From positions 13,687,001-13,751,000 of the forward strand of contig NC_091094.1 in the NCBI RefSeq assembly GCF_024713975.1: a DNA stretch of 64,000 nt. The letters are read 5' to 3'. Made by a program: the position numbers and the translations under genes. Positions 31,101 through 51,930 of this stretch are shown here, one piece after another. The stretch comes from Paralichthys olivaceus (Eukaryota > Chordata > Actinopteri > Pleuronectiformes > Paralichthyidae). How positions within the stretch are numbered: position 1 is the stretch's first letter; the number at the start of each line of letters is the position of its first letter. The notes beneath the pieces were generated by a model. It saw only the letters and a list, made by a program, of their open reading frames with translations, had not been told where the DNA came from and made no database searches.

Positions 31101-32885
31101 GCAGTATGTAAACTAATTACCCTATTGGTCTTAATGTATGACGACCCTGATTATAGATGATATTATACAGCTCATATTTTGTAAATCTTTTTTAAATAGG
31201 AAATATTAAGTATATCAAATAAAGCAGGTAGCTGTACTGTGCTTGTTGTCTCTTAAATTGAATATCACATGTACGTAAACAACAGAATGAAAAACAAGCC
31301 TGTAAATACGACAAACTCTTGTCAGACTTTCTAAGAATATTTTTCCACATCCAGATATCACAATCTTTGATTGTATGGTTGCTGTTAAATAGTTCATTAA
31401 TGTGGCCCTAAATGATTAAAATAATTTCCATCATTGATCACCATCATGGTGACATACAAATTGTTAAACTTGGCCTGGTTCTCCATTTCTCCAACTGTCT
31501 CATGTTGGAGTTGGAAAGTGTCACATAAAAAGTATATGTTAGTATACGTCTATTGTGTAACTATCATACGAACATATTTGTTTATGTGATGTAAAGTTAG
31601 TTTGCATCACCTAAAGTTTACTTTTTTGTCTTTACAATTACTTTGATTGAAGGACGTCATGCTTTTATTGGTCTGGGCTTTGCTGATCGTGGAGACTCAT
31701 TTGACTTCAATGTTGCTTTACAAGACCATTTTAAGTAAGTTACTGCCTGTTGCATGTGTTTTTTTGCACCTAATGTGTATTTACACGTACGACCTATGAC
31801 TGATCAAGTCTATTTGACCAGCTTAATTTTTCTAGACTCATCTTTGTACTACTGTTTTTGTCTAAATGTGTATTTAATTTCTAACATTTAACCTTGTGTG
31901 AGTGGATATTATTATTTTTTATTTAAAAATGAAAATACATTTACAGTATTTGTGAAACTATGTCAATAGCAAGCAACGTGACAATATTTTAAAACTCTCT
32001 AGTACGATTGTTAAAATGTTTAACCATTGATCTACAATTTGTTGTCTTCACCATCCCCATTGCATTCTGAAGTACCAACTTAAAGTTTAACTTGACCAAA
32101 AGATATTTCCAGTAATAACTGCTATGCTTCCAAACCCCATTTCTAAAGATGGGTGAAGCAAGAGGGTGAGCTCGCAAAACTGGAAGCTTCTGAGAGCGCA
32201 GCACCTAAGCTGGACCTGAGCTTCAAAGAGGGACAGACAATCAAGATCAGCATTGGGGTGAGCATGTTACCCAGACGTCACAGATCGAAGGAGATGACAC
32301 CAATGACAACAATATTGAACAAATAAATTATGATTTGAAGTTTTAGAAACGGTTGTAACTCTGTCTACCACAGAACATTAAGAAAAAGGATGCAGGTGGT
32401 GTCAAACCTAGGCAAATGGTTGGGGGCCTGCTCCCACCTCCACCAGGCGCAAAGGCTGGAAGCACCATGCAACCTCCTGGAGGACAGCAGACAGTCCCAG
32501 CTGTTGAGACTAACACTGGTGATCACCCTGCTCTTCTATTAGATACATTTTTAAAAAATCATTACAGGATGTAAACATCATTCATACTCTACATTATTGT
32601 TTTTTCCTCAAATATAGCCTCTCTATTAGACTTTGGTTCCCCCATCCCTGCAGCCCAGCCCAGCTCGGACGGTTGGGGGGATTTCACATCTGCAGGTTCC
32701 AAGTAAGTTTTTCAGCATCTTTTTCTTATGTAGTAATACATCCCAGCCATTTGCTCAACATGTATCACTTTTACGTGACTGTTTTTGAGATATTCCTCAC
32801 TCATTATCACTCTCATCTTCCACCACCTCTCCTCCACAGCTCCAGTAAAGATGCTGTCCAGTCAGGATGGGTGCAGTTTAGTTGA
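28104..32885 (+). CDS. necap2: NECAP endocytosis-associated protein 2
   Basis: Accessory factor of clathrin-coated vesicles that binds AP-1/AP-2 adaptor ears. Eight exons: 28104-28198, 29922-30022, 30939-31043, 31653-31734, 32149-32257, 32374-32518, 32618-32702 and 32840-32885; phases agree and the product is 255 residues (human 263). The N-terminal PHear domain spans exons 1-5: [74 protein letters not shown]. The linker is Pro/Gly-rich ([11 protein letters not shown]). Two WxxF adaptor-binding motifs are visible, WGDF (232-235) and WVQF (251-254); the protein ends one serine after the second. The ATG lies in acaaaatggcag, which resembles a YY1 site. Exons 4, 5 and part of 6 are duplicated 11 kb downstream. 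A candidate poly(A) signal is at 33867-33872. Confidence 0.95.
28780..28905. repeat. Dispersed fish repeat fragment in necap2 intron 1
   Basis: aaagatggacgacatgacag, cgaagccaaaacgcc and cgccccttggtgg form a phrase I recognise as a common teleost repeat (name unknown). A further repeat, ccagggctgggtgattaact, begins at about 29005. The remainder of this 1.7-kb intron shows no supported feature. Confidence 0.4.
30346..30560. mobile_element. MITE with TTAAAGG..CAGTGTGTA terminus (copy 2, partial)
   Basis: The left end attaaaggcccagtgtgtaa is clear, followed by gatttaggtgg, ttttcactagtgtg and gttttctttacc, shared with the copy at 53803. The right end is not visible. It lies in necap2 intron 2. 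Confidence 0.5.
31108..32415 (+). repeat. Segmental duplication block S1, parental copy (necap2 exons 4-6)
   Basis: From gtaaactaattaccctattgg in necap2 intron 3 to cctaggcaa inside exon 6, this stretch recurs almost base for base at 42145-43578. The copies differ by scattered substitutions and by about 117 nt present only in the downstream copy, near 42945-43060. Confidence 0.9.
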
Positions 32886-34009: not shown

Positions 34010-34290
34010 ATATTTCAACTCCTGAAGAATGTGGAGATGCTTGCTGTCAAAGAGGAAAGAAGCTGGAGATGGTGCCAGGCTTTTTGTACAGGCCACTTTT
34101 CAAAGAGGAGGCAATACATTTCTGACTGTTTTATGAGAAAGGAAACCAATAGCAACTCTGGACAAGGCCACTTCTAACGCAACTCCCTGAAAATGGCCTT
34201 GTCTTGCAAGATCTTTGATTATTTGTGGGTTGACAGTTAATTTAATGTCTTTGACCTCGGCCCATATTTTCAGTTTTTCCACGTTTTAAA
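34010..34290 (-). pseudogene. Decayed third copy of the unknown 16-residue-repeat gene (3' part)
   Basis: On the minus strand the frame read from 34282 gives KIWAEVKDIKLTVNPQIIKD. The two intact genes at 38338 and 45067 have IWAEVKD(I)NLTVNP and then KDLDKDIFKELCKK. The similarity continues at the DNA level to the end of their coding region (gaatgtggagatgcttgctg, tcaaagaggaaagaag, tttttgtacaggcc on the plus strand against the corresponding 45080-45140). The reading frame is lost after the shared segment, and no 5' half or repeat array is seen. It is much more diverged than the two intact copies are from each other, so it predates the recent duplication. It is a relic of the host's own gene family. 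Confidence 0.72.
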
Positions 34291-34852
34291 GAACATGTCA
34301 CAATAAGAAATTCAACCAAGCTGTGGTATAATAATAATATTCTCTTTCAATGAGATAGATGACTATGAGAGCAGAGACTAATACAGAGTTCACAAATAGT
34401 TAAGAAATGAAATATGAAAATGCCCATGTGTCAAATTATAGTGCGAGTGCTGCTCACACATCTGATAGGCTTGTGCAAATTATGTATGTATAGTTATAAT
34501 GTTAAAAAATGGACACAGTAGTACATTAAACATCAATAAACTGCTTATAACCACTCTTAGTATAGCACTACCAGGTTTATTTATACTGAGTGAGCATTGG
34601 TAAACTGTCAAATGCTAAATACTTAAGGTAGCTGTGCTTGCTAGCTATATATCTATTAAAATAAAACAACTACTAGCAACGATACTTATTTAACCCAACA
34701 CTACAAAAAACTATACAATAATTCTTAACAAAAACAAACTTTAAGAACAATGATACTAATAATAGAATAGTAACATGCTTCCACTGTCACATATGATTAG
34801 TCTACAAATGCTCTGCGTGCAGAACAGGGAAGGCTTTCGTACTTTGTCTAGG

Positions 34853-35530
34853 TGGGGATGGGTATTGTCACTGATTTCCCAAATCGATTCGATTCCGGTT
34901 CACAAGGTCCAGATTCAATTCAATATCAATTCAGTTAAGGATATTTCCTTGTAATACAAGTTTTTCTTGGATATGAAAGAACTAAATGTTTAAATTGTAA
35001 CTTTGTGCAATATTAAAAATATTAAGGTAGGCCTGTCACGATGACAAATTTTGTTGGATGATATATTGTCCCAGAAATTACTGCGATAAATGAAACCATT
35101 TCACACCACTGATATAATAATATAATAGCATATTAATAACCCTTTCAAAGAGCAATGAACTTTAAAATCTTGAGAATATCAGTCTGACATTTGAATTAGA
35201 AATAAAAAATATTAAAACATTTTAAATAAATAAAACATAAGCAAAAAAAACACACACACAACCAAAACAATAAATGAAATCACCCCCAACCAACAGCACC
35301 TGAATGCAGCACCAAAAACGAAACTTATTTTTCGCCTGGTGACGGGTGTGAGAGAACTCCGCCTCGCTCCAGGAGAGGAGATGATCGGATCATTTAAATG
35401 AGGATCAATTTTAATCAGAGAATATTTCCAAATCCAGCTCTATGTTCAAACAGCAATTCAGAAATCAGGAAATTCTGACAGGGCGAATGCAATTCACTGT
35501 TAAATACCAATTCTTTTCTTACCCATCACT
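34853..35530. mobile_element. MITE-like repeat with a second repeat nested inside
   Basis: The outer element has ends ggggatgggtattg and caattcttttcttacccatcac, an inverted gatgggtat/acccatc pair. Its body has aaatcgattcgattccggtt phrases seen in many fish elements. At 35028 a second repeat starts with taggcctgtcacgatgacaa and ttgtcccagaaatta, another widespread fish element, running to about 35340. No coding potential. Confidence 0.5.
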
Positions 35531-36829
35531 ATAAAACATTTTTCTTATACCATCTGCTCCCCCTTCTTTCCTTTGTCTTGTGATTATGGTGCAGGTCTAC
35601 TTACTATATTGTTAGTATCTTTGTCTCTTCTGCCCTTTCAGTTGTCACTCTTGAAATGTTATACACCGTCTCGTTCTCCATTTACAAAGCAGAGGTTTTG
35701 TAAATTATGAGTAGAATCTATTATATCACATACATGTGCTGATCTATCCAAGAGCAATGGCCCTTTAATACTCCTTGCACCTTTAATGTTCTTAAACCCT
35801 CTTTAGAAATACAATTTTTCGTCACTGTGTTGGGATAGAGTCATGATTGCCATTTTGTCTGGGATTCATTTGAAAATGTTTATCTGTTCATGTTTGTTTT
35901 TGTCTACACCCTCTATGTCTTTTCCTTGTTTGTTTTTTTTAAATGTGCCTTTTACCAAATTAAATTTTCCTGAATCTGAAAAATTTGCAATAAGAATTTG
36001 ATCAAGTGCCTTTCTGAAAAAGACCTAAAACATGTTTTGTTTTCTTGTAAATAAACAATGTATTTCATTGGCTCTTTGTGAGTGTAAATCAATGAAATAA
36101 CCAGTGTCTGCCTGTGGAATTATGGAGAGAATTTAATCTGAAATTGTTTGTTCTCTGAAACTCGTGTCAGAGTTCTTCACATTTGCGAGTTTAAAGGTTA
36201 ACACTGCATCAAATAATAAAAGTGTTGATAATATAGAACATGAAGTCACCTTTGAATCATGTTAATCTAAAGAATGTTAAAAGATAAATATGTTCAGTTT
36301 GATATCTTTTATTTTAGACTGTCAATTGTTCCATGGTCTACAGTTGTAAAATATTCAAATCATTTCAGTCACTTCATTTTCCCTCGAGAGAAATTGTGTC
36401 ATTGTGAATGGATTCATATAGAGACTATATGCAATTGCCACCTGATGCCTGTATGAATATACAGTTATTTTCTGAAGTGTTTCAACATTATTTCATTTAT
36501 ATGTATTTGCAGAGGTAAAAGTATAAGTACAGATACTTGTGTAAAAAAGGACTGGTAAAAGTAGAAGTACAGGCTCTGAAATGTACTTAAGTACAAAAGT
36601 AAAAATTAATGTTTTACTTCAATGATACATGATAACTCTTAAGATAAATTAAAAAAGTTGTAGGCAAACAAAACAGGATAGTTTTCCTCTTTTAAAAACC
36701 TGCACAGAGCTGGTACAGAGAAAATAATCCCTGTACACAGTCTAGTTTTGCTGCAAAATGTCAGACAGAATAATAAAGACTGAACTGAGTCCTGCATAAG
36801 CACCTGGATCATTTTTGCAAGGAATAAGT

Positions 36830-36886
36830 GGATGGAGAATGTGCTGGCCTTCATTAAGTCCCTGCCCTTTGTACACACCCCCTGTT

Positions 36887-36926
<40 letters not shown>

Positions 36927-37490
36927 ACCCAGCTGGAGTCGGTCACGGCCCTGGCGGAGCGTCAAGAAGACGATCAAACTTGACTATCTAGAACATGGAG
37001 AGAATGATAAACTCTTGTGTGAGAGAGTGGTCCCAAGATGTCTGAGCAACATCGGACATGACATCCTTGAGCTGCCTATCTCAAGTCTTGTAGAGGAACA
37101 GGACGGAAAAGGACACCAAAAGAAGCCACTTACCATGCTGACATTGTGGGCCACATTCAACAGGGAAGAGGAGGTTTGGGCCTAGGTCAGATTAGACCCC
37201 TGTGGAACAAGGCAACTCCTTCAGAGAAGCGAAAATTGGTAGTCCTGGAAATCCGGCATCAGGACGAGGCAGCAAGATGTCCAAAGGCGGTCACTCAAGC
37301 AAAACGGGCTGTGAATGGAATGGGGAGCATAGAGAAAAGGAAGATCAGCTGGAAGGACCTGTGAGAAATGGAAGCAAGCAGGATTAGCTTCCTGCTTAGA
37401 GTAACCTATGACGTCCTTCCCTCACCCAAAAAAAAAACCTGAGGCACATCCTCACTGGTTGTAAAATAAGTCTCTTCCGAGGTAGGTATA
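36830..37490 (+). mobile_element. LINE-type reverse transcriptase C-terminal fragment (copy A)
   Basis: Plus-strand frames give RPLWNKATPSEKRKLVVLEI, then IEKRKISWKDL, RVTYDVLPSP and HILTGCK. These match a pattern I recall from fish non-LTR retrotransposon proteins (PLWxxxxPSExRKLVV ... YDVLPSPxNL ... LExxLSSC). An upstream part reads LPFVHTPCCYYRLDGLVRSS. It is degraded by frame changes and a poly-A tract and has no ends. The duplicate at 43620-44060 lacks about 230 nt of it. Confidence 0.55.
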
Positions 37491-37530
37491 CGTGGAGACA
37501 CAACCATTTTAAAACATGATGGCTGATTAA

Positions 37531-37898
37531 TTAAAGGTACAGTGTGTAGAATTGTGTGATATCTAGTGTTGAAATTTCATGTTGCAGCTGAACACCACTC
37601 ACCTCACCCTCTCCTTCCAAACATGAAAAAGAACCTGTGGTAGCTTCAGTTGTCATAAAAACTCAAAAGGTGTTTAGTTTGTCCAGTCTGGACTAATGTA
37701 ACAAACATGACGGCCTCCGTAGAGAGGGTCCCCTCCATGTAAATTAAGTATTTAAATATAAAGTATTTAAATATAAAGGGCCTTTTCTGGGGTAAAGAAA
37801 ACTACAATTCATACAATTTAGATGAAACGAACTAGTGAAGACATCGTGATGATTAAATATCTGCCAATAGATCCCATTCACCTAAACACTGGACCTTT
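37531..37898. mobile_element. MITE with TTAAAGG..CAGTGTGTA termini (copy 3)
   Basis: Left end ttaaaggtacagtgtgtaga, right end taaacactggacctttca, imperfect inverted repeats. The body includes gctgaacaccactcacctca and gtttagtttgtccagtctgg. It was carried along in the segmental duplication as the copy at 44107. Confidence 0.65.
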
Positions 37899-38336
37899 CA
37901 AGAAGAAACTAAACTTGCAACTGTGCATTAGTTTCTGTGAAATAGATACTGAGAGAAACTGATTAGATATTGAATCTTTTAAAATGTTCTAACGACTATG
38001 GGAGGAAACCAGAGCACATGGAGAAAACCCACAACAAAACTTTAGTCACAATGGAGTAAATACTGAAAGCTCATTTTAATTCACTTTCTAAGTGCGAGGG
38101 AAACCAGAGAACCTGGAGAAAACCCCCAAAAAAATGTATAAAGAAAAAGCTAATTATAATTAGCGGAACAGGTGATTGGGAGAGAGACAAGTAGATCAAA
38201 AAGGTCTAGTACAGTAACATAGCAGTATGACAAGTTTTCGTCTTTTCATCTTCTTCTACTTTTTCCTTGTTCAGTCTTTTGGCAGGTGGCAACGAACATC
38301 ATGGTGCATCCACTGACTTAGTGCACTGTTCCACCT

Positions 38337-38342
38337 TTTATT
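38337..38342 (-). terminator. Poly(A) signal overlapping the stop codon of gene A
   Basis: On the minus strand the stop TAA (38340-38338) is embedded in aaaaaataaaag, so the AATAAA hexamer covers the stop codon. The same arrangement exists in gene B at about 45066-45071. If used, the 3'UTR would be only 10-30 nt. Confidence 0.45.
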
Positions 38343-40353
38343 TTTTTCTCTTGAACATGGAAAAGATCTTTGAAAAAGAGGAGAAGAGGCCACGCTTTTT
38401 GCAAAGGCATCTTTTCACAGAGGAGAGAATTGATTCCTGAAGTTCTGGCTCCCTTAAAAGAAGGGCAAACAGCATGTTCTGAGGTTTCCACTTCTTACAC
38501 AACTCCTTGAAAATGTCTTTGTCAAGGTCATTGAACATTTGTGGATTAACAGTTAAGTTGTCTTTGACCTCCGCCCATATTCCCTCCAGCAGTTGATGAC
38601 TTATGTTCTTTATGTCAACCCTACTCATCCTGGCATTATCATAGATTTTTGTGATGAGCTGGTCCACGAGAACACTGACATATATTTTATATCTTTCTGC
38701 TGCCAACATCTTTACATTCTCTGATGATATTGACTGATTTGGAGAGTTCTTCCCCCCACTGCTGACCAATGATGGTGTTGACTGATTCGATGAGTTCTTC
38801 CCCCCGCTGCTGACCAAGGATGGTGTTGACTGATTCTTTGTTTTCTCCTCATTGCTGGTGATCTCTGATGATATTGACTGCCTCGGTGTGTCCTCCTCAA
38901 TGCTGCTGATCTCTGATGATGTTGACTGATTCTTTGTTTTCTCCTTATTGCTGGTGATCTCTGATGATATTGACTGCCTCGGTGTGTCCTCCTCAATGCT
39001 GCTGATCTCTGATGATGTTTCCATTGAGTCAATGGCATTTAAAGCCTCTGTCACCCTGTCTGTGTGGCTGTTAACCTGGTTATTCACCCACCAGCTTATC
39101 AAGGACAGGAAACAAAACACTCTGGTCTGTATGTCTTCATACATGCCCTTATTTGCCTTAGGAACAGCCACTGGACTTGAACTGAGTTCTGCATTCTTTC
39201 CAGGTATGATGTGCACATAGATGAGATCAGAAAGCTGTTTTGTGAATGCAAGAACCTTTTCAGATGTAGGCTTTTTCAGTGTTTGGAAAGCATAACTTTC
39301 ATTTCCACCTCCCTGCTTGTCCTGCTTCAGAAGCACAGCATCAATACTATCTATCAGTGAGGTTATTGCCAGCCCGCTTTTGAATTCAGTCTCCTTCTTG
39401 AATTTCTTTGCGATCTGTGTCAGTATTTGGAGCATCCCTGCTGATGCAAAAGTCTTTATGAAAAGCCTATTGATTGTCCGCATTCCTTTACAGATTGAGG
39501 AGCTTGGCTCTTGAGATTCCCTCCCCTTTTTGCTTTCCTTAAGGATTGACTCAATAATTTCATCTAAAGCCTCATATATCTCTGGAGAAATCAAAGCATT
39601 GAGCTTAAGACTCTCATTGAACTCATTAAAGAACGTTGTGATATCAGTCAAACTATTGTTGATTGTTTCCTGGATAATCCTCTTTACACTTTCTACACTA
39701 CTGGTTGGTGAACCCTCTGAGGAAATTCCCAACTTGGAACTGATTTGTGACGATTGGGAGCTTGAAGAGGTCCTAGCCATCTGAACAGAATGGTCTGTAG
39801 TGCTCTGCTCTTCTGAGGAAATGGAATGACTTTGCCTGTGAGATTGACTCTTGAACAAGCGTTTGATCTCTTTGTCTGCCTTTAACGCCTTGCAGGCATA
39901 ACAGATCATCTTCTGGAGTTTACTGGGATTAATGGTGCGGGATGGTATCCCAGAGCTCACAGAGGTTGAACTTGCAGACAAGATGGAGTTGACAGTCTTT
40001 GTCACCTCCTCTACAATCAGCTCTGTGAGTTGATCCAAACTCCTAGAACGTTTTGTGTTGCCTGGTGAAAAAGCGTTATTGACAGTGTCGCCCAGAATGG
40101 ACCGAACCCTTTCCTGAGACACAGGTACGTGGGTACTTCGCTTCGAAATGGCATTGGAAACGGTCATCATTAAGTTCAGCAGGAGATCTGCCAACAGTAT
40201 TGTTGTAGCTTCATCCGGTTTGCTTGACTTCAACAGCCGCCACTGCTCCGCAGTGATCTTCATAAAAAAGGAATTGAAGTATGGGCGGACAGTCTCAGCA
40301 TTTATGGCTGATTGGTTACCAGATTGGAGAGTCAGTGTCTGAGTTGTCTCCAT
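38338..40353 (-). CDS. Unknown intronless Ser-rich repeat protein, copy A
   Basis: A single 671-codon open frame; I do not recognise the family. Residues 1-70 are well ordered and helical in character (AETVRPYFNSFFMKITAEQW, ILLADLLLNLMMTVSNAISK). Residues 70-440 are mixed helical and Ser-rich segments (RTSSSSQSSQISSKLGISSE). Then six 16-residue tandem units occupy 39015-38728: SSEISSIEEDTPRQSI and SSEITSNxEKTKNQST alternating twice, then two PSLVSSGGKNSxNQS units. The C-terminal 130 residues are non-repetitive and end in a Cys/Lys-rich basic tail (CLCKKRGLFSSFSKIFSMFK, then RKK). No signal peptide or clear membrane span. A TATA box lies 111 nt upstream of the ATG. The frame is kept in both copies, which supports a real protein. 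It could be a domesticated mobile-element gene, but no reverse transcriptase, capsid or transposase feature was seen. Confidence 0.75.
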   Translation of the reverse strand: METTQTLTLQSGNQSAINAETVRPYFNSFFMKITAEQWRLLKSSKPDEATTILLADLLLNLMMTVSNAISKRSTHVPVSQERVRSILGDTVNNAFSPGNTKRSRSLDQLTELIVEEVTKTVNSILSASSTSVSSGIPSRTINPSKLQKMICYACKALKADKEIKRLFKSQSHRQSHSISSEEQSTTDHSVQMARTSSSSQSSQISSKLGISSEGSPTSSVESVKRIIQETINNSLTDITTFFNEFNESLKLNALISPEIYEALDEIIESILKESKKGRESQEPSSSICKGMRTINRLFIKTFASAGMLQILTQIAKKFKKETEFKSGLAITSLIDSIDAVLLKQDKQGGGNESYAFQTLKKPTSEKVLAFTKQLSDLIYVHIIPGKNAELSSSPVAVPKANKGMYEDIQTRVFCFLSLISWWVNNQVNSHTDRVTEALNAIDSMETSSEISSIEEDTPRQSISSEITSNKEKTKNQSTSSEISSIEEDTPRQSISSEITSNEEKTKNQSTPSLVSSGGKNSSNQSTPSLVSSGGKNSPNQSISSENVKMLAAERYKIYVSVLVDQLITKIYDNARMSRVDIKNISHQLLEGIWAEVKDNLTVNPQMFNDLDKDIFKELCKKWKPQNMLFALLLREPELQESILSSVKRCLCKKRGLFSSFSKIFSMFKRKK
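38728..39015 (-). repeat. 48-bp coding tandem repeat, 6 units
   Basis: Six consecutive 48-nt units inside gene A, each encoding 16 residues. Units 1-4 form two 96-nt higher-order pairs; units 5-6 are the PSLVSSGGKNSxNQS type. All begin at the same place in the codon frame. Confidence 0.9.
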
Positions 40354-40462
40354 TGCAGCTGTTGTATCAATATGTGTATGCCAAAAATGGTTTTCTTTGG
40401 GCTGTTCACACTGAGTTTTCCAAAGTGTCTTGTGAAGAATCTTTTGTTTTTGCCAAATGGCT

Positions 40463-40472
40463 GGTTTATAAA
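40463..40472 (-). promoter_or_regulatory. TATA box of gene A
   Basis: TTTATAAACC on the minus strand, about 111 nt before the gene A ATG, implying a 5'UTR of roughly 80 nt. The flanks are conserved in copy B (47585-47594). Confidence 0.5.
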
Positions 40473-41009
40473 GACTGATTCTTCACTTCCTTTTTGTTTT
40501 TGACTAAAGGATGATTTAAAAGGATTAAAGCATTATAGGTAATTAAGGCAAAGAAATCAAAGAGAGGAGGTTAAAGGAATTGAATGATCAAAGGAAACTG
40601 CAAATGAGAAGCAGCCCCACCCCTCAACTGTGCCTGTAATATAGGCAGATGAAAGGTAATCACTCATTGAACTTAGCCTGGTATTAGGCTTTGGTTTCAC
40701 AGACAATATCTGTGCTTGCTCCATCCACTCGGATCAACCTGGTATTGCAGTACCTCAAGGAAATGTGCAACAACTCAGTAGATGGTGGTAATGCACCTTG
40801 ATGTTGGTTGCCACTCGCTAATAAACCAAACAAAGAAGAAGAAAGAAGAACTATATCTATTCCTAAAAGTTTTACTTGATACAAACACATAATTACTATC
40901 ATATTACAGGAATTATATGTGATGTAAAAGATCACTTATTTTTAAACAGTGAAAGAAATGGAGCAAACCCTGCAAGGTAGTTCAGGCAGCCAACTCGAGC
41001 TGTGCTGCT

Positions 41010-41287
41010 CACATCATGTGACATACCTCATTCTCCATAATCATCTATTATACACACCCACCTTATTAGGCGGCCTATTTAAGCAACCCCTTTGCTTGCA
41101 ATGCTGCTGCAGTATTACTACCAGTTGCTTCAGCCCCTCCACCACCCCAGCATCCACATGTACTACAGCAATATCAATGTAGCAGTGGGGCAAGCAAAGG
41201 GAGTAATGGGAACATTTTCTCTGCTTAAATAGACAGCTGGTTGTGTATTATAGATGATTGTGGAGAATGAAGTATGTCACATGATGT
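41010..41287. mobile_element. Fold-back (long inverted repeat) element, copy A
   Basis: The left arm starts acatcatgtgacatacctca and includes ttctccataatcatctatta. The right arm, read as its complement, is acatcatgtgacatacttca, ttctccacaatcatctataa. Inner arm parts also pair (cccctttgcttgc with gcaagcaaaggg; tatttaagca with tgcttaaata). Together they form a long hairpin of about 280 nt with a loop of about 70 nt. A TATA-like tatataaag follows at about 41307. Confidence 0.7.
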
Positions 41288-41289
41288 AT

Positions 41290-42140
41290 GTGTAGCCCAT
41301 AGACTGTATATAAAGAGTGTGTGGCACTATGCTAGGGTTATGGCACCCTGATTGCTGGGCGGCATCGGTCTGCTGCTTATAACCGGGTGAGTGGCCACAC
41401 CACGCCCCTTCCTTCCACTCTGTGCTCCCTCTCGGGTGGTGGCTGGCGTGGCGTGTTATACCTCGGGGCGCAGGTGTGCATGTGTGTGGATGAATGTGTT
41501 TTAATAAGTGACCATTGTTGTTTCTTTTTGGCTATCAGTTTACATTTTATGTACTCATGGCATGATTTTAACTTTTCTTTTTGTGTTAGACAGGTGCTGT
41601 AGGCCCCAGGCGGCAGCCCAACTCCCTTTTTGAGTTGGTGTGCAGTGTTACAGGTGGTTAGTTTGTGGTCCTCTCCTTCTTTTGCTTCCCTGCTGCTGTG
41701 GTAAGCCCCAGCCCTGTCCTTCCTCCCTTTTGATCCCTATGCCTGAGTGCCATTTTATCCTTTCCTGCCTGGTATCCTGGTGAAACTCCCCCCAGGTGGC
41801 ATTGTTGCAACCAACCACAACCCAGTCTGCCACATTCTGGCGATGTTGGCACGATTTCCACGTTTAAAAGGCAGAGACGTGTTCTTTTTTTTTTCTCTTT
41901 GCCTTTTTGTTGTATTGCCTTTTTTTTTCATTACTAGTCATTAATGTTCTGTGGTTGTGTTTTGTTTGTGTAATGGTAGAGCCAAAACAGCAGTATTTAT
42001 TCCAGAGATCCACCCAACTTTCTGGATAATTTTGTGAGGCTTTGGTGTCGCTTCCCCTCGGTCAGTATGGAGGAGGAGGTGCAGCAGCTCAGGGACCTAG
42101 TGTTGTAGCTTAAGACGGATAATGAAAGGCTTCTTCGGGA
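41290..42140 (+). mobile_element. LTR-retroelement-type fossil sequence (copy A side)
   Basis: A fossil with no intact genes. It has a core-promoter-like tatataaag near 41307, GC-rich leader-like sequence, and at about 42068 a short gag-like beginning of the MEEEVQQLRDLV type. I infer a Ty3/gypsy-like or similar element. Boundaries are uncertain and the element is broken. It ends abruptly where the necap2 duplicate begins (42145). Confidence 0.35.
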
Positions 42141-42144
42141 GCGG

Positions 42145-43578
42145 GTAAACTAATTACCCTATTGGTCTTAATGTATGACGACCCTGATTATAGATGATAT
42201 TACACAGCTCATATTTTGTAAATCTTTTTTAAATAGGAAATATTAAGTATATCAAATAAAGCAGGTAGCTGTACTGTGCTTGTTGTCTCTTAAATTGAAT
42301 ATCACATGTACGTAAACAACAGAATGAAAAACAAGCCTGCAAATACGACAAACTCTTGTCAGACTTTCTAAGAATATTTTTCCACATCCAGATATCACAA
42401 TCTTTGATTGTATGGTTGCTGTTAAATAGTTCATTAATGTGGCCCTAAATGATTAAAATAATTTCCATCATTGATCACCATCATGGTGACATACAAATTG
42501 TTAAACTTGGCCTGGTTCTCCATTTCTCCAACTGTCTCATGTTGGAGTTGGAAAGTGTCACATAAAAAGTATATGTTAGTATACGTCTATTGTGTAACTA
42601 TCATACGAACATATTTGTTTATGTGATGTAAAGTTAGTTTGCATCACCTAAAGTTTACTTTTTTGTCTTTACAATTACTTTGATTGAAGGACGTCATGCT
42701 TTTATTGGTCTGGGCTTTGCTGATCGTGGAGACTCATTTGACTTCAATGTTGCTTTACAAGACCATTTTAAGGAAGTTACTGCCTGTTGCATGTGTTTTT
42801 TTGTACCTAATGTGTATTTACACGTACGACCTATGACTGATCAAGTCTATTTGACCAGCTTAATTTTTCTAGACTCATCTTTGTACTACTGTTTTTGTCT
42901 AAATGTGTATTTAATTTCTAACATTTAACCTTGTGTGAGTGGATATAATGCAAGGTTGCATAGCATGCATACTGAATGTTAATTGTATTCTTTAATTATA
43001 TTCAATAAAAGTGACATAATGACTGCTGTTTGTTGAGTTATGTAATAATTTACTTTAAAACAGAGACACTATATTTATTTTTCATTTAAAAATGAAAATA
43101 CATTTACAGTATTTGTGAAACTATGTCAATAGCAAGCAACATGACAATATTTTAAAACTCTCTAGTACGATTGTTAAAATGTTTAACCATTGATCTACAA
43201 TTTGTTGTCTTCACCATCCCCATTGCATTCTGAAGTACCAACTTAAAGTTTAACTTGACCAAAAGATATTTCCAGTAATAACTGCTATGCTTCCAAACCC
43301 CATTTCTAAAGATGGGTGAAGCAAGAGGGTGAGCTCGCAAAACTGGAAGCTTCTGAGAGCGCAGCACCTAAGCTGGACCTGAGCTTCAAAGAGGGACAGA
43401 CAATCAAGATCAGCATTGGGGTGAGCATGTTACCCAGACGTCACAGATCGAAGGAAATGACACCAATGACAACAATATTGAACAAATAAATTATGATTTG
43501 AAGTTTTAGAAACGGTTGTAACTCTGTCTACCACAGAACATTAAGAAGAAGGATGCAGGTGGTGTCAAACCTAGGCAA
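42145..43578 (+). pseudogene. Truncated necap2 duplicate (exons 4, 5 and part of 6)
   Basis: Nearly identical to 31108-32415. Exon 4 (from about 42695; [20 protein letters not shown]) is intact in frame, but its donor has changed from aa|gtaagtt to aaggaagtt, so the GT is lost. Exon 5 (about 43314-43422) and the start of exon 6 follow with splice sites like the parent. Exon 6 stops at cctaggcaa, where block S2 sequence begins. There is no promoter and no exons 1-3, 7 or 8, so it cannot make NECAP2. It carries about 117 nt near 42945-43060 that the parental intron lacks. Confidence 0.9.
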
Positions 43579-43688
43579 GACTGAACTGAACTGCGGTCCT
43601 GCATGAGCACCTGGATCATTTGCAGGGAATAAGTGGATGGGGAATGTGCTGGCCTTCATTAAGTCCCTGCCCTTTGTACACACCCCCT

Positions 43689-43731
<43 letters not shown>

Positions 43732-44106
43732 ACCCCGCTGGAGTCGGTCACGGCCCTGGCGGAGCGTCGAGAAGACGATCAAACTTGACTATCTTCAGAG
43801 AAGCGAAAATTGGTAGTCCTGGAAATCCAGCATCAGGACGAGGCAGCAAGATGTCCAAAGGCGGTCACTCAAGCAAAACAGGGGCTGTGAATGGAATGGG
43901 GAGCATAGAGAAAAGGAAGATCAGCTGGAAGGACCTGTGAGAAATGGAAGCAAGCAGGATTAGCTTCCTGCTTAGAGTAACCTATGACGTCCTTCCCTCA
44001 CCCAAAAAAAAAACCTGAGGCACATCCTCACTGGTTGTAAAATAAGTCTCTTCCGAGGTAGGTATACGTGGAGACACAACCATTTTAAAACATGATGGCT
44101 GATTAA

Positions 44107-44476
44107 TTAAAGGTACAGTGTGTAGAATTGTATGATATCTAGTGTTGAAATTTCATGTTGCAGCTGAACACCACTCACCTCACCCTCTCCTTCCAAACAT
44201 GAAAAAGAACCAGTGGTAGCTTCAGTTGTCATAAAAACTCAAAAGGTGTTTAGTTTGTCCAGTCTGGACTAATGTAACAAACATGACGGCCTCCGTAGAG
44301 AGGGTCCCCTCCATGTAAATTAAGTATTTAAATATAAAGTATTTAAATATAAAGGGCCTTTTCTGGGGTAAAGAAAACTACAATTCATACAATTTAGATG
44401 AAACGAACTAGTGAAGACATCGTGATGATTAAATATCTGCCAATAGATCCCATTCATCTAAACACTGGACCTTTAA
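44107..44476. mobile_element. MITE with TTAAAGG..CAGTGTGTA termini (copy 4)
   Basis: Duplicate of the element at 37531 with a better preserved right end (aaacactggacctttaa). Confidence 0.65.
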
Positions 44477-44882
44477 ATGAAGAAACTAAACTTGCAACTG
44501 TGCATTAGTTTCTGTGAAATAGATACTGAGAGAAACTGATTAGATATTGAATCTTTTAAAATGTTCTAACGACTATGGGAGGAAACCAGAGCACATGGAG
44601 AAAACCCACAACAAAACTTTAGTCACAATGGAGTAAATACTGAAAGCTCATTTTAATTCACTTTCTAAGTGCGAGGGAAACCAGAGAACCTGGAGAAAAC
44701 CCCCAAAAAAATGTATAAAGAAAAAGCTAATTATAATTAGCGGAACAGGTGATTGGGAGAGAGACAAGTAGATCAAAAAGGTCTAGTACAGTAACATAGC
44801 AGTATGACAAGTTTTCGTCTTTTCATCTTCTTCTACTTTTTCCTTGTTCAGTCTTTTGGCAGGTGGCAATGAACATCATCGT

Positions 44883-45050
44883 CCGAAACCTGGTAATCAC
44901 CTCTGCCCTCCGACCCTGACCAAGTCTTCTGCCTGTTGCTTATGTATTGCCTGCCACCTGATCTGCTGAGAGCTGTGAATAAAGACTGTTACCAACTGTC
45001 CATGCTTGTTGCATTTGCTGCATTTGGGTTCAAACCATACCCGTTACAGG
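44883..45050 (+). mobile_element. Retroelement-end-like fossil inserted beside gene B
   Basis: About 165 nt absent from copy A. It ends in gtgaataaagactgttacca and gcatttgctgcatttgggtt, wording typical of fish LTR or retroelement 3' ends. It has no genes. It lies immediately past the gene B stop and would interrupt any longer 3'UTR shared with gene A. Confidence 0.35.
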
Positions 45051-45066
45051 TGCACTGTTCCACCTT

Positions 45067-47475
45067 TTATTTTTTTCTCTTGAATATGGAAAAGATGTTT
45101 GCAAAAGAGGAGAGGAAGCCACGCTTTTTGCAAAGGCATTTTTTCAAAGAGGAGAGAATTGATTCCTTAAGTTCTGGATCCCTTAAAAGAAGGGCAAACA
45201 GCATGTTCTGAGGTTTCCACTTCTTACACAACTCCTTGAAAATGTCTTTGTCAAGGTCTTTGATCATTCGTGGATTAACAGTTAAGTTAATGTCTTTGAC
45301 CTCCGCCCATATTCCCTCCAGCAGTTGATGACTTGTGTTCTTTATGTCGACACCGGTCCTACTCAACTTGGCATTATCATAGATTTTTGTGATGAGCTGG
45401 TCCACAAGAACACTGACATACATTTTATGTCTTTCTGCTGCCAACAACTTCTCTGGTGATATTGACTGATTTGGTGAGTTCTTCCCCCCACTGTTGACCA
45501 ATGATGGTGTTGACTGATTCGATGAGTTCTTCCCCCCGCTGCTGACCAAGGATGGTGTTGACTGATTCGATGAGTTCTTCCCCCCGCTGCTGACCAATGA
45601 TGGTGTTGACTGATTCGATGAGTTCTTCCCCCCACTGCAGACCAATGATGGAGTTGACTGATTCGATGAGTTCTTCTCCCCGCTGCAGGCCAATAATGGT
45701 GTTGACTGATTCGATGAGTTCTTCTCCCCGCTGCAGACCAATGATGGTGTTGACTGATTCTTTGTTTTCTCCTCATTGCTGGTGATCTCTGATGATATTG
45801 ACTGCCTCTGTGTGTCCTCCTCAATGCTGCTGATCTCTGATGATGTTGACTGATTCTTTGTTTTCTCCTCATTGCTGGTGATCTCTGATGATATTGACTG
45901 CCTCGGTGTGTCCTCCTCAATGCTGCTGATCTCTGATGATGTTGACTGATTCTTTGTTTTCTCCTCATTGCTGGTGATCTCTGATGATATTGACTGCCTC
46001 GGTGTGTCCTCCTCAATGCTGCTGATCTCTGATGATGTTGACTGATTCTTTGTTTTCTCCTCATTGCTGGTGATCTCTGATGATATTGACTGCCTCGGTG
46101 TGTCCTCCTCAATGCTGCTGATCTCTGATGATGTTTCTATTGAGTCAATGGCATTTAAAGCCTCTGTCACCCTGTCTGTGTGGCTGTTAACCTGGTTATT
46201 CAGCCACCAGCTTATCAAGGACAGGAAACAAAACACTCTGGTCTGTATGTCTGCATACATGCCCTTATTTGCCTTAGGAACAGCCACTGGACTTGAACTG
46301 AGTTCTGCATTCTTTCCAGGTATGATGTGCACATAGATGAGATCAGAAAGCTGTTTTGTGAATGCAAGAACCTTTTCAGATGTAGGCTTTTTCAGTGTTT
46401 GGAAAGCATAACTTTCATTTCCACCTCCCTGCTTGTCCTGCTTCAGAAGCACAGCATCAATACTATCTATCAGTGAGGTTATTGCCAGCCCGCTTTTGAA
46501 TTCAGTCTCCTTCCTGAATTTCTTTGCGACCTGTGTCAGTATTTGGAGCGTCCCTGCTGATGCAAAAGTCTTTATGAAAAGCCTATTGATTGTCCGCATT
46601 CCTTTACAGATTGAGGAGCTTGGCTCTTGAGATTCCCTCCCCTTTTTGCTTTCCTTAAGGATTGACTCAATAATTTCATCTAAAGCCTCATAAATCTCTG
46701 GAGAAATCAAAGCATTGAGCTTAAGACTCTCATTGAACTCATTAAAGAACGTTGTGATGTCAGTCAAACTATTGTTGATTGTTTCCTGGATAATCCTCTT
46801 TACACTTTCTACACTACTGGTTGGTGAACCCTCTGAGGAAATTCTCAACTTGGAACTGATTTGTGACGATTGGGAGCTTGAAGAGGTCCTAGCCATCTGA
46901 ACAGAATGGTCTGTAGTGCTCTGCTCTTCTGAGGAAATGGAATGACTTTGCCTGGGAGATTGACTCTTGAACAAGCGTGTGATCTCTTTGTCTGCCTTTA
47001 ACGTCTTGCAGGCATAACAGATCATCTTCTGGAGTTTACTGGGATTAATGGTGCGGGATGGTATAGTCTTCCCAGACCTCACAGAGGTTGAGCTTGCAGA
47101 CAAGATGGAGTTGACAGTCTTCGTCACCTCCTCTACAACCAGCTCTGTGAGTTGATCCAAACTCTTAGAACATTTTGTGTTGCCTGGTGAAAAACCGTTA
47201 TTGACAGTGTCGCCCAGAATGGACCGAACCCTTTCCTGAGACACAGGTACGTGGGTACCTCGCTTCGAAATGGCATTGGAAACGGTCATCATTAAGTTCA
47301 GCAGAAGATCTGCCAACAGTATTGTTGTAGCTTCATCCGGTTTGCTGGACTTCAACAGCCGCCACTGCTCCGCAGTGATCTTCATAAAAAAGGAATTGAA
47401 GTATGGGCGGACAGTCTCAGCATTTATGGCTGATTGGCTACCAGATTGGACAGTCAGTGTCTGAGTTGTCTCCAT
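45067..47475 (-). CDS. Unknown intronless Ser-rich repeat protein, copy B
   Basis: A single 802-codon open frame, paralogous to the gene at 38338-40353. The non-repeat parts align end to end with few gaps (for example two extra residues giving VRSGKTIPSRT). The repeat array has 14 units of 16 residues (46131-45460) instead of six: four pairs of SSEISSIEEDTPRQSI plus SSEITSNEEKTKNQST, then six units of the PSLVxSGxKNSxNQS type, one of them PLLACSGEKNSSNQS. The extra eight units account for 128 of the 131 additional residues. The C-terminus ends CLCKKRGFLSSFANIFSIFK, then RKK. The TATA box, 5' flank and stop/poly(A) overlap match copy A. No known domain recognised; function unknown. Confidence 0.75.
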   Translation of the reverse strand: METTQTLTVQSGSQSAINAETVRPYFNSFFMKITAEQWRLLKSSKPDEATTILLADLLLNLMMTVSNAISKRGTHVPVSQERVRSILGDTVNNGFSPGNTKCSKSLDQLTELVVEEVTKTVNSILSASSTSVRSGKTIPSRTINPSKLQKMICYACKTLKADKEITRLFKSQSPRQSHSISSEEQSTTDHSVQMARTSSSSQSSQISSKLRISSEGSPTSSVESVKRIIQETINNSLTDITTFFNEFNESLKLNALISPEIYEALDEIIESILKESKKGRESQEPSSSICKGMRTINRLFIKTFASAGTLQILTQVAKKFRKETEFKSGLAITSLIDSIDAVLLKQDKQGGGNESYAFQTLKKPTSEKVLAFTKQLSDLIYVHIIPGKNAELSSSPVAVPKANKGMYADIQTRVFCFLSLISWWLNNQVNSHTDRVTEALNAIDSIETSSEISSIEEDTPRQSISSEITSNEEKTKNQSTSSEISSIEEDTPRQSISSEITSNEEKTKNQSTSSEISSIEEDTPRQSISSEITSNEEKTKNQSTSSEISSIEEDTQRQSISSEITSNEEKTKNQSTPSLVCSGEKNSSNQSTPLLACSGEKNSSNQSTPSLVCSGGKNSSNQSTPSLVSSGGKNSSNQSTPSLVSSGGKNSSNQSTPSLVNSGGKNSPNQSISPEKLLAAERHKMYVSVLVDQLITKIYDNAKLSRTGVDIKNTSHQLLEGIWAEVKDINLTVNPRMIKDLDKDIFKELCKKWKPQNMLFALLLRDPELKESILSSLKKCLCKKRGFLSSFANIFSIFKRKK
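45460..46131 (-). repeat. 48-bp coding tandem repeat, 14 units
   Basis: Fourteen 48-nt units in gene B, arranged as four 96-nt pairs followed by six 48-nt units of a second type. Some adjacent units are identical in sequence, pointing to recent slippage or unequal exchange. All frames of this strand stay open because the unit is a multiple of three. Confidence 0.9.
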
Positions 47476-47584
47476 TGCAACTGTTGTATCAATATGTGTA
47501 TGCCAAAAATGGTTTTCTTTGGGCTGTTCACACTGAGTTTTCCAAAGTGTCTTGTGAAGAATCTTTTGTTTTTGCCAAATGGCT

Positions 47585-47594
47585 GGTTTATAAA
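47585..47594 (-). promoter_or_regulatory. TATA box of gene B
   Basis: TTTATAAACC on the minus strand, in the same place relative to the ATG as in gene A. Confidence 0.5.
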
Positions 47595-48131
47595 GACTGA
47601 TTCTTCACTTCCTTTTTGTTTTTGACTAAAGGATGATTTAAAAGGATTAAAGCATTATAGGTAATTAAGGCAAAGAAATCAAAGAGAGGAGGTTAAAGGA
47701 ATTGAATGATCAAAGGAAACTGCAAATGAGAAGCAGCCCCACCCCTCAACTGTGCCTGTAATATAGGCAGATGAAAGGTAATCACTCATTGAACTTAGCC
47801 TGGTATTAGGCTTTGGTTTCACAGACAATATCTGTGCTTGCTCCATCCACTCGGATTAACCTGGTATTGCAGTAACTCAAGGAACTGTGCAACAACTCAG
47901 TAGATGGTGGTAATGCACCTTGATGTTGGTTGCCACTCGCTAATAAACCAAACAAAGAAGAAGAAAGAAGAACTATATCTATTCCTAAAAGTTTTACTTG
48001 ATACAAACACATAATTACTATCATATTACAGGAATTATATGTGATGTAAAAGATCACTTATTTTTAAACAGTGAAAGAAATGGAGCAAACCCTGCAAGGT
48101 AGTTCAGGCAGCCAACTCGAGCTGTGCTGCT

Positions 48132-48428
48132 CACATCATGTGACATACCTCATTCTCCACAATCATCTATTATACACACCCACCTTATTGGGCGGCCTAT
48201 TTCGGCAGAGAGAAATTTCCCATCAACCCCTTTGCTTGCAATGCTGCTGCAGTATCACTACCAGTTGCTTCAGCCCCTCCACCACACCAGCATCCACCTG
48301 TACCACAGCAATACCGATGTAGCAGCGGGGCAAGCAAAGGGAGTAATGGGAAATTTTCTCTGCTTAAATAGACAGCTGGTTGTGTATTATAGATGATTGT
48401 GGAGAATGAAGTATGTCACATGATGTAT
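48132..48428. mobile_element. Fold-back (long inverted repeat) element, copy B
   Basis: Longer and cleaner than copy A: the left arm also keeps ggcagagagaaatttcccat, which pairs with atgggaaattttctctgc in the right arm. The arms are about 105-120 nt each. A tatataaag follows at about 48446. Confidence 0.75.
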
Positions 48429-48429
48429 G

Positions 48430-49690
48430 AGTAGCCCATAGACTGTATATAAAGAGTGGCTTGCACTATGCTAGGGTTATGGCACCCTGATTGCTGGGCA
48501 GTGCTGGTCTGCTGCTTATAACCGGGTAAGCGGCCACACCACGCCCCTGTGGAGTGTTATACCTCGGGGCGCATTCCCATACATACAGCACGGCAGGTGG
48601 CAGGCTTTACTGATGGACGGGTCGTCCCGCTGGGAGCTCTGCTGGGGTTGGGTTTGTGTCCACAGCGTTGTGCCATTTGGTGCAACACTCTCGCCCTTCT
48701 GCGCATAGGAAAAGGCTGCAGTCAAGTGTGTGGCTTGTCTCTCGCCAACACTCCCTGGAATAGTTCTGCTGTTTTGGCTCTGTGGGTTCTGTTGGGATCA
48801 GGTTGCTCTGCCATACGCTGGTCTGGTGCTGGCTGGTCACTTTATTCATGGCATCTCCACCCGTGTTGATCGGCTGGTGGTGTAACCTTGGGCAGGCAAC
48901 GTCTGACGCCACTATTTTTAACCATTGATATATATTTATTTAGTTAATTTGGTTTGGTTTCATTTCTATGAATTGTAGGGTTTATTCTGGTTTGTATTTT
49001 TGTTATTTTGTAGTTAATTTGTGGATTACTTGTTTTTCTTTCTTTGAGTGTGGTTATTTTATTTTCTATCATTGGTCCTGAGTGTGTGCATGTGTGTGGA
49101 TGAATGTATTTTAATAAGTGACCATTGTTGTTTCTTTTTGGCTATCAGTTTACATTTTATGCACTCATGGCATGATTTTAACTTTTCTTTTTGTGTTGGA
49201 CAGGTGCTGTAGTCCCCAAGCAGCAGCCCAACTCCCTGGTGGTGGTGTTCTTCACGATTCCCTTTTTGAGTTGGTGTGCAGTGTCACGGCTGTGGCCCCC
49301 TCCCCATTTTGCTTCCCTGCTGCTGTGGTAAGCCCCAGCCCTGTCCTTCCTCCCTTTTGATCCCTATGCCTGAGTGCCATTGTATCCTGTCCCGCCTGAT
49401 ATCCTGATAGCCAGCGTATTGTTTATTTTTGTATTGTTAAGTGTTCATTTCATTCGTGTTTAATAAAATGTATTTTTTATATGGAATGCTCTCTGCCCCT
49501 GTGGATAATTGAACATGTGTGATCCTTAAACTTTTCCCTCTCTAATTTCCTGGGGGTGAAACTCCCCCAGGTGGCGTTGTTGCAACCAACCACAACCCAG
49601 TCTGCCCGATTCATCACATGATTGAAGCAGCGCAGCTCGAATTGGCTGCATGAACTAGCTCGCAAGCGTCGCTCCAACCACGACAGAAAA
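48430..49690 (+). mobile_element. LTR-retroelement-type fossil sequence (copy B side)
   Basis: Counterpart of 41290-41831 with an extra inner stretch of about 500 nt. No intact gene. The last 70 nt (49610-49680), read in reverse, resemble the sequence just left of the fold-back elements (gcagccaaytcgagctgygc), so related termini face each other across the block. Family assignment is tentative, and the element is broken. Confidence 0.35.
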
Positions 49691-49863
49691 CTTTGAAGTG
49701 TGAATAATATTCACATCTGGCCAGACAACCAAAATAAAAAATAAATAAGACAAAACACAAGAAAAAACACTTAAAAAAAAAACACATAATCAACCCTCTA
49801 GGAATTCTACAAAATAACATTAACATTACATACCTGATACAAATTGTGCTAGAGCAGGATGCA

Positions 49864-50490
49864 TCAATCTCTCATGTCCATCAGTCGGGCAAGGAATGGG
49901 CCCCAAACTCTAACCAATAGTTCTTCTCTTCCATCCACTCTATAAGTCACCTGCTCATAGCTTGCCATTGTATTTACTACCTCTATCCATTCCAGGTGTA
50001 TGAAGTAGAACACTTCCAGTGGTGTAGGGTTATCCTGCACCCTGTTTACAAAGCTAAACAGCAATCTCTGGCATTTTGTCAACATTGTCCGGTAGTAATC
50101 CTCAAAGAAATATTGTAGATTTTTGATTAAATGTTTTCCAAACAACAGGGAAGGTATTATTTTATCCCACATGCTGTCTTTTTTAACACAATCATATAAC
50201 ATGTGCACCAGAGTTCCCTCCTTTCTATTACATCTCCAACATGTATCGCTGCTGATGTCTAAGTTTAAGTCTGGCTAATTTAGAGGGAGACCAATATTTA
50301 GTGACAAAACACAAAGAGTTTTTTTTTACAGTTATCTTCTGGGATCTCCTGATCCAGGTCCCTTTCCCAACATATTTTAAGGCCCTCCAACTTTGGAAAT
50401 TGTGTATGTCTAAAATAATCATTGCTGCTCGCTTATTTTTGTGCTCCATCTTAAGTGAGAGATCATGAAATCCAGTTGTACCTTGCAAAA
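49864..50490 (-). mobile_element. LINE (L1/Tx1-like) ORF2 C-terminal fragment
   Basis: Minus-strand translation gives LRHQQRYMLEM in one frame. One frame step later it gives DISSDTCWRCNRKEGTLVHM, then LYDCVKKDSMWDKIIP and VWGPFLARLM. The CWRC...H.L.DC pattern followed by W is the zinc-knuckle-like end of L1-clade ORF2 proteins. It is 5'-truncated with at least one frameshift between the two pieces, so inactive. Confidence 0.7.
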
Positions 50491-50499
50491 TGTATTTAT

Positions 50500-51140
50500 T
50501 TGAAAATAATGCCTAATTTGAAAACATCTCCAGAATGCAGAATTACTCAAACGCTATATTTAAAAAAAAATATTGACATAAGAACTGAATCTAACATCTC
50601 CCATCACATCACCTAAATCACCCTAATCCATTCATGAGTTGCCGTGATGAAATTCACACAATCAGCAAAGAGTTTTCCTAATTTAATTTAACTGTAATGT
50701 TATAATTTTCAAGTGATTTCTTCGGTGGCTACCCCATTTATACAGTATTTTGTGGTTGTGTTTTGTATTCATAATAATTGAAGGGTTTTACATTCTATTG
50801 GCCAGGTATTCAGTATCCTAAGCTTCCACATTCAGATCTAAAGATGGAAAAGTAATTCCACAAATACAAAACCTAATGCAAGAATAACTATTTACATTAT
50901 ATTTATCCACCATTTGTTCACTTTAACCTTCTGTTCATTGATTTGAATTAATATCGATCTTAAAGCTGAAAAAAATTCGAAAATATAACTGAAAACGATT
51001 TTTTGCATTTCTCTTAAAAGATTTACAGCTTGAGAGATTTGTTTTTAGCACCTCGTGGGTTTTTCACTAATGGCTGTCAGGCTTTCTGAACACAAAAATA
51101 AATAAAGAGGAATTATGTTGATGGTTGTATTTGATTTGAA
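50500..51140. other. AT-rich spacer
   Basis: No gene, splice pattern or strong repeat recognised. Confidence 0.4.
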
Positions 51141-51930
51141 GCAGAGATAAGTGTGATCATATGACGTGACGGCAGCGGGACACCATCTCAAACAGACGGG
51201 ACACAGACTGACTGCAGGCTGGTGCTGAGCTGAAAGCCCCTCCCCGGAAAAAGCATGTCGTAGGAGCTTTGAGATCGAGGCAGCGCTGCCTGACAACAGC
51301 TTTTGGACGCGGCTTATTCCTGGTGTCAGAGTCCGCTCAGAGGGATGGAGGGACGGCACCGGATCGCCGATCACACAGGTGACTCGAGGTGAGATGCGTC
51401 AGAGTAAACACCAGACAGGGAAGTGGGTGTTTCTGCGGCGAAGGCGACATTAAACGCAACACGATGCGTCGCTGTGTAAAGCGGTTTATATTCACACTGT
51501 TGTTTCCACAGTCTCAGTATTTAGCTCATATGATGCGTGCACCCCCCTCCTGTTGCGTGGTGTAGATGCTGCGCAGTTTAACGCTCAAACACCCTCCTCC
51601 CCGCTGCTGCTCCTCCTGCTGCTCCTCTGCTCCTCCAACTCCTGACAGACTTTTGAAAACTTGGGCGTGTCCTTTTTCAAAGCGTTGGTGTGCGTGTGAT
51701 CAGGTCAAGAGGATGCTAGTGATGAATTCAAAGCCGTTTTCGGACATTATTCTCTGGACGGGCTGTATTTGAGGATGCAAATACAGTGAGAGCCTCCGGA
51801 CTTTCTGCTGAGTTTCTTCAGACATTCCCCATCGTAAAAACTCCGCAGAAACTCCGGAAGCTGATGTGAGAACACAGTAGGAGATCCTCTGCAGGATTCA
51901 CTGCCAGTAAGTTGTTGGTGAAGAATCTAA
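51140..51930 (+). promoter_or_regulatory. GC/CpG-richer block, possible upstream promoter or 5' exon
   Basis: Higher CpG density than its surroundings. It contains ATG at 51345 (MEGRHRIADHT, then a donor-like acag|gtgact) and a donor-like gcca|gtaagt at about 51907. It could be a distal crocc promoter with a non-coding exon, or a separate non-coding transcript. No conserved protein is seen. Confidence 0.3.

Follow-up and report, generated by a model that had tools for sequence, protein, structure and literature searches.

The 64-kb stretch of Paralichthys olivaceus DNA analysed in this study (the window) contains two intact single-exon genes on the minus strand, C2a (38338..40353; 671 codons) and C2b (45067..47475; 802 codons), with the positions and lengths that a previous sequence-only reading had given for them. 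The two proteins show 96.1% identity at 438 aligned positions within their first 440 residues, and their difference in length resides mostly in an array of 16-residue (48-bp) Ser-rich repeats, which has around 6.8 units in C2a (residues 443–550; 38704..39027, minus strand) and around 14.6 units in C2b (residues 445–678; 45442..46143, minus strand). A decayed relic with broken frames, suggested earlier, lies at approximately 34065..34387 on the minus strand, as recognized by blastn, tblastn and the sequence itself; tblastn with family proteins, which match it at 34387–34117 (minus strand), confirmed that it corresponds to the C domain only, split over several frames. The conserved gene neighborhood described before was also recognized, by eye, on the plus strand: the first exon of necap2 lies at ~28143 and a later exon at ~31706, and crocc-like coiled-coil exons begin at ~54.9 kb. 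The region 31108–32415 recurs at 42145–43578 (plus strand) in two blocks with 99% identity, and the splice donor in this copy is altered (GGAAGT at ~42772, where the original has GTAAGT). The local duplication therefore exceeds the gene, a necap2 exon having been copied too. The upstream flank of C2a (40354..41409, minus strand) is ~96% identical to that of C2b (47476..48548, minus strand); the first 577 bp of the latter are found in the family only, judging from 40 scored candidates out of 792, and are followed by repeats that are also present elsewhere.

Genome-wide tblastn searches using C2a, C17 and C10a as queries revealed at least 17 intact, intron-free genes of this family on eight chromosomes. 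Close copies number 12 on six chromosomes, 10 of them intact and full length; all 55 first-look candidates were scored, and the counts are lower bounds. The deeper relatives, seven of which are intact, have 30–37% identity to C2a. The idea that the genes are a local duplication between necap2 and crocc thus gives way to a wider distribution, in which the window pair represents two of the 12 close copies and deeper relatives are located elsewhere. All relatives found with the three queries are single-exon genes and fragments, consistent with the intronless family proposed from the window alone, and no intron-bearing parent was found with these queries, pieces on C1, C7 (2.09 Mb), C19 and C21 being left aside. 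The close copies have 0.3–1.1 kb or more of upstream flank in common, with approximately 88–96% identity, and the longest common segment, between C15 and the window, extends up to ~7 kb; in C8a only ~320 bp is common to the other close copies. Because such flanks, from 0.3 kb to several kbp long, accompany the close copies, our results show that the recent copies spread as DNA segments, by DNA-level duplication and not by retroposition, and a retrocopy origin of the recent group is ruled out.

The intact genes exhibit a common architecture, in which N and middle domains are followed by a linker and then by the C domain. This linker differs by group: the close group has the Ser-rich repeat array and C11 a repeat of another kind, Asp/Pro, whereas in C10, C17 and C18 the linker is short. 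The repeat linker motifs (SxxE/D, TP and R/KxS) are rich in phospho-acceptors, and a basic C-terminal tail is a feature of the close group. Pfam gave no family above its cut-off for either window protein, and no solved relative was found for them. Several matches were rejected: Fibrinogen_BP in Pfam, hit by one of 10 members at 2.6e-05 and taken as low complexity; perilipin, with a best E of 0.0051 in two of 10 members, and GrpE, at E 0.25 and below its own cut-off, both judged to be chance matches; and gp120 entries, matched by the C-domain profile at E 0.36 and above and judged likewise. The whole-protein fold model (pLDDT 41) was too weak to search, and the C-domain model (pLDDT 64) gave no match at E 0.001, its best PDB row being an eIF2B epsilon fragment at E 0.77. 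Among the papers listed in literature searches, none names this gene family. The earlier reluctance to assign a family, and the description of these genes as fast-evolving and intronless, are thus borne out, since there is no convincing curated family match and the residues change fast. Capture of the gene from a virus would fit the lack of introns and of relatives in the libraries searched, but this origin is extremely improbable: in a scan of viral contigs, sensitive to close relatives only, seven stretches fit a pattern and none encodes a relative, and no viral fold was matched at E 0.001 with the weak model.

The copies could instead be the cargo or the coding part of a mobile element, moving as a transposon with the gene serving the element. 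They are present on several chromosomes, and the C15 copy and the window have a common upstream limit (C15 18558135, corresponding to window position 53968). Furthermore, the C8, C15 and C20 copies are followed downstream by a hAT-like end that, judged by eye, has a BED-finger-like reading, and the GGTACC-rich part of this end is also found downstream of C7. However, the C2 copies have no hAT end, C8e stops ~1.2 kb before reaching the C15/window limit, and C8a has just ~320 bp of upstream sequence in common; long flanks in this comparison of unit ends came from C15 and C8e only. A long-inverted-repeat transposon around the unit was rejected, because its arms are copies of a high-copy, MITE-like element of ~370 bp, which has 3694 first-look candidates in the genome (40 of the 40 scored match). 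Pfam searches of 10 aligned members (the C15 row without its C domain) and of the window proteins detected no transposase, reverse transcriptase, integrase or gag. The absence of a transposon domain and a count of just a dozen close copies argue against a transposon, which we regard as distinctly unlikely. The earlier suggestion of capture from a mobile element is thus unsupported. The hundreds of genomic copies that would have counted against the sequence-only reading were not found either, the search yielding the 12 close copies, as a lower bound.

The genes are under weak constraint in the N and middle domains (pN/pS ~0.6–0.7) and under none in the linker (1.26) and the C domain (1.01), and the median dN/dS over 45 pairs is 0.71. 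Such values, with a C-domain pN/pS of around 1, would fit copies that had multiplied recently without function, their frames being open by chance or through gene conversion. In that case, however, neutral decay should have introduced stops into most copies: in a neutral model of seven genes that ignores frameshifts, the chance of no stop per gene is 0.018–0.10 at 3% change and 0.06–0.21 at 2%. The frames have thus stayed open longer than this model predicts while residues change fast. The distant members at 30–37% identity are also open over their full length, and the promoter motif described below persists, so that non-functional copies are very improbable. A fast-evolving immune gene family would account for the birth and death of copies, the near-neutral residue change and the combination of tandem and dispersed copies; as Pfam shows no immune domain, we consider this quite improbable.

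The sequence-only reading also proposed a TATA promoter shared by the two genes. The sequence TTTATAAA is indeed present at −117 in both window genes, but TATA[AT]A occurs within 250 bp in just four of the 18 promoters of intact genes, ruling out a TATA box as the family-wide promoter. By contrast, CTTTGAT is found on the coding strand in all 18, at −103 to −311 relative to the ATG. The TCF binding element is given in PMC9956233 as 5'-SCTTTGATS-3', and this TCF/LEF consensus is matched by 17 of the 18 promoters, the exception being C17 with TCTTTGATC. It occurs only three times in the window, two of these being the genes' own sites, namely CCTTTGATC upstream of C2a (40586..40594, minus strand) and CCTTTGATC upstream of C2b (47708..47716, minus strand), both starting at −241. 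Because paralogous promoters share descent, the 18 promoters amount to around seven lineages. ATCAAAG/CTTTGAT is the only 7-mer present in seven of seven independent promoters, and none of 1000 dinucleotide-shuffled promoter sets contains any 7-mer in all seven, the motif having first been noticed in the same promoters on which it was tested. Among the close copies, promoter conservation is no higher than that of the adjoining sequence; C8a was left out of this divergence, because its flank is non-homologous beyond around −320 and inflates the value. TCF/LEF target promoters, as described in PMC9956233, have the same element, whereas the candidate site here is confined to one strand and a narrow distance range and extends over a whole gene family.

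We therefore favor, with a probability of roughly 0.55, an old single-exon host multigene family with birth-and-death turnover over a transposon. A TCF/LEF-class HMG-box factor would bind the CTTTGAT site and turn the family genes on, although a different HMG-box protein may read the 7-mer. Expression would probably be narrow, with the germ line or the early embryo as the likeliest setting. The protein may be a helical (from a low-confidence prediction), cytosolic scaffold, with a basic C-terminal tail in the close group, and the phospho-acceptor-rich repeat linker might adjust spacing or binding; changes in the numbers of copies and of repeats would in that case alter dosage and the length of the linker. 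It is conceivable, if doubtful, that this intronless family is lineage-restricted and answers as a whole to beta-catenin/TCF signaling in germ cells or the earliest embryo, that new copies carry their own TCF switch and die on losing it, and that the length of the phosphorylatable linker varies between them. The damaged copies C3a and C7a are without CTTTGAT; they lost it through deletions, and site loss therefore need not have killed them.

A-kinase anchoring and fibrous-sheath proteins have helical, Ser-rich, amphipathic segments. The present proteins appear similar in these respects, with no sequence match found, and might be sperm-tail or cilium scaffolds of that kind, an unlikely reading to which the Ser-rich, phospho-acceptor repeats lend themselves. 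In six of seven representatives the C domain starts with an amphipathic RII-binding-like pattern, but this pattern is degenerate (a mean of 0.66–0.96 hits per shuffled protein) and fits any amphipathic helix. In the PDB profile search, the N/middle alignment scored best with radial spoke protein 3, at a non-significant E of 0.29 judged to be chance. There is no Pfam match, and FSIP2 (PF15783) was absent among the window-protein matches with E up to 10, most of those above ~0.1 having been dropped; the FSIP2 model gave no match in the genome, where its controls gave no signal either.

The teleost lineage-specific and single-exon genes described in PMC3599513 and PMC8207432 are likewise intronless or young fish genes. 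In contrast to those gene sets, the genes here form a single multicopy family, in which the repeats vary in length and a TCF-type site is shared. Heyn et al. (2014; cited in PMC12006353) describe the first zygotic genes as short and newly evolved; being short and fast-evolving, they resemble the family here and may be linked to it. What is new here is the CTTTGAT/TCF-LEF-like motif upstream of every intact family gene examined, which connects an orphan, repeat-rich family with a single, well-defined and deeply conserved control element. Because the same motif lies upstream of each of these genes, the time and place of their action are directly testable, and the direct question arises of whether TCF/beta-catenin drives the family genes, and when. 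With its many copies in one genome, the family also offers a case for comparing the loss of a promoter element with the death of genes.

The two intact minus-strand frames proposed by the sequence-only reading were borne out: the single-exon family gene C2a (38338-40353(-)) is an open frame of 671 codons and C2b (45067-47475(-)) one of 802 codons, their main difference being a 48-bp, 16-residue repeat array of about 6.8 units in C2a versus 14.6 in C2b. The proposed decayed relic is likewise present, as a third family piece, a broken C domain at about 34065-34387(-). By eye, the neighbouring genes are an fbxo42-like F-box gene, szrd1, necap2 and crocc. Three segments of the locus are repeated: 31108-32415 has a second copy at 42145-43578 (two blocks, 99%), 37219-38305 has one at 43793-44882 (99%), and 38718-41409 one at 45834-48548 (96%). 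A necap2 exon sits inside the first pair, and its splice donor in the 42145-43578 copy has changed from GTAAGT to GGAAGT; therefore this second necap2 copy looks like a dead fragment. We read the repeats as a single local duplication that would have carried the necap2 piece along with the family gene.

The local duplication noted earlier is present, but the family is not confined to the necap2-crocc interval. In the genome assembly (588 Mb, 25 contigs) the C2a query matched 74 stretches by tblastn, and the copy numbers that follow are lower bounds. The 12 close copies lie on chromosomes C2 (two), C8 (five), C20 (two), C15, C3 and C7; ten of them retain an intact, full-length frame of 671-958 codons. 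The C7 copy is open over 851 codons and lacks the first 72 or so codons and the promoter; the C3 copy has a frame shift near codon 76, one stop, and about 340 bp of promoter missing. Intact deeper relatives, with 30-37% identity to C2a, were found on C18 (two), C10 (two), C11 (two) and C17, which brings the intact genes to at least 17, on eight chromosomes. C3 also has a shorter member, an open frame of 360 codons without the middle domain; a third member on C11, of 366 codons, is broken, and fragments occur on C11, C12, C17, C19 and C21. C-domain-only frames on C7 and C1 (L034:988-1491 and L035:359-1132) may be parts of spliced genes; no relatives with introns were seen among the family matches in the genome.

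The close copies have a common upstream flank (about 88-96%), whose length ranges from some 320 bp in C8a to >1 kb, and the 577 bp immediately upstream of C2b match at family loci only (40 of 792 candidates scored). That one common unit was copied is suggested by the identical upstream limit of C15 and the window, whose common blocks reach C15 18558135 (window 53968), but the C8e match ends elsewhere, at window 52745, which speaks against it. Flanks and promoter are shared between copies, and the close copies therefore spread by DNA-level duplication. Window 49655-52090 is absent from the C15 copy; within it, frames at 49867-50512 resemble, by eye, the C-terminal part of LINE ORF2. By eye, an alignment of copies other than C3 shows a hAT-like end downstream of those on C8, C20, C15 and C7, and none behind the C2 pair. 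At loci L016-L023, downstream of C15, C8 and C20 genes, this end has by eye a GGTACC-rich terminus, with a BED-finger-like reading in several copies. Copies of a MITE-like element lie at 44107-44476, about 37530-37900, 52776-53223 and 53806-53982; it is high-copy (3694 first-look candidates genome-wide, with a match in 40 of 40 scored), and its copies look like long inverted repeats enclosing the gene unit; a transposon with such arms was accordingly rejected.

In a tree of 18 rows (C1, C11c and C3b omitted, C3a absent), the 11 close genes form one group, the C10, C11 and C18 members pair up each, and C17 is a singleton with a long branch. The deep branching order is not settled, since six of the 15 inner branches appear open in the drawing and the tree program flags long branches.

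The median dN/dS is 0.71 over the first 440 codons (45 pairs of ten close copies), and the value over the last 125 codons is 0.88 (ten close copies). Regional pN/pS, pooled over 10 pairs from five genes, is 0.59 for the N domain, 1.26 for the linker (166-215), 0.67 for the middle domain and 1.01 for the C domain, ratios that agree with the earlier suggestion of fast evolution. In neutral simulations (400 runs each, frameshifts ignored) of seven genes with partly common history, a change of 3% left each gene a chance of 0.018-0.10 of staying stop-free, and a change of 2% one of 0.06-0.21. Thus the frames are maintained, with weak constraint on residues.

No Pfam family scored above cut-off for the C2a and C2b proteins. 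The best match among the ten members of alignment A1 (the C15 row without its C domain), Fibrinogen_BP at 2.6e-05 in one member, was taken for low complexity. No PDB relative was detected by sequence at E up to 10, and profile searches gave weak rows only. Fold prediction gives a helical protein, with low confidence (pLDDT 41 for the whole protein, 64 for the C domain). Linkers of 11 copies carry 3-9 TP, 4-31 R/KxS/T and 7-20 S/TxxD/E motifs each, patterns that we take to be phosphorylation motifs. The C-terminus, described previously as basic and Cys/Lys-bearing, is basic in the close copies; its cysteines are not conserved.

CTTTGAT/ATCAAAG was the sole 7-mer found in all seven independent promoters (350 bp upstream; 14 sites), an agreement partly due to common descent and tested on the same promoter sequences in which the motif was first noticed. 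The overlapping GATCAAA occurs in six of seven and the next 7-mer in four; dinucleotide shuffling produced no 7-mer common to all seven in any of 1000 sets, and one common to six in 16 sets. PMC9956233 gives the TCF binding element as SCTTTGATS. Together with the short C3 member the 17 make 18 intact genes, and over the 1 kb preceding each of them CTTTGAT on the coding strand is confined to -103 to -311; exact SCTTTGATS is present in 17 of these promoters, C17 having TCTTTGATC instead, and reverse-strand ATCAAAG falls in the same zone in three (C8b, C8c and C18a). Coding-strand CTTTGAT was not found in the loci of the damaged close copies C3a and C7a. Exact SCTTTGATS occurs three times in the window, at C2a, at C2b and at 54023(+), the last just past the upstream limit common to the window and C15. 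Because the upstream regions differ greatly outside the CTTTGAT site, we read this site as kept by selection.

No published description of the family was found in titles and abstract openings, and it may still be published or annotated. Judged from its sequence, this is a real host gene family carrying a putative family-wide TCF/LEF-type site. Its genes would be switched by TCF, in the germ line or early embryo, and its protein may be a phospho-tuned helical scaffold.
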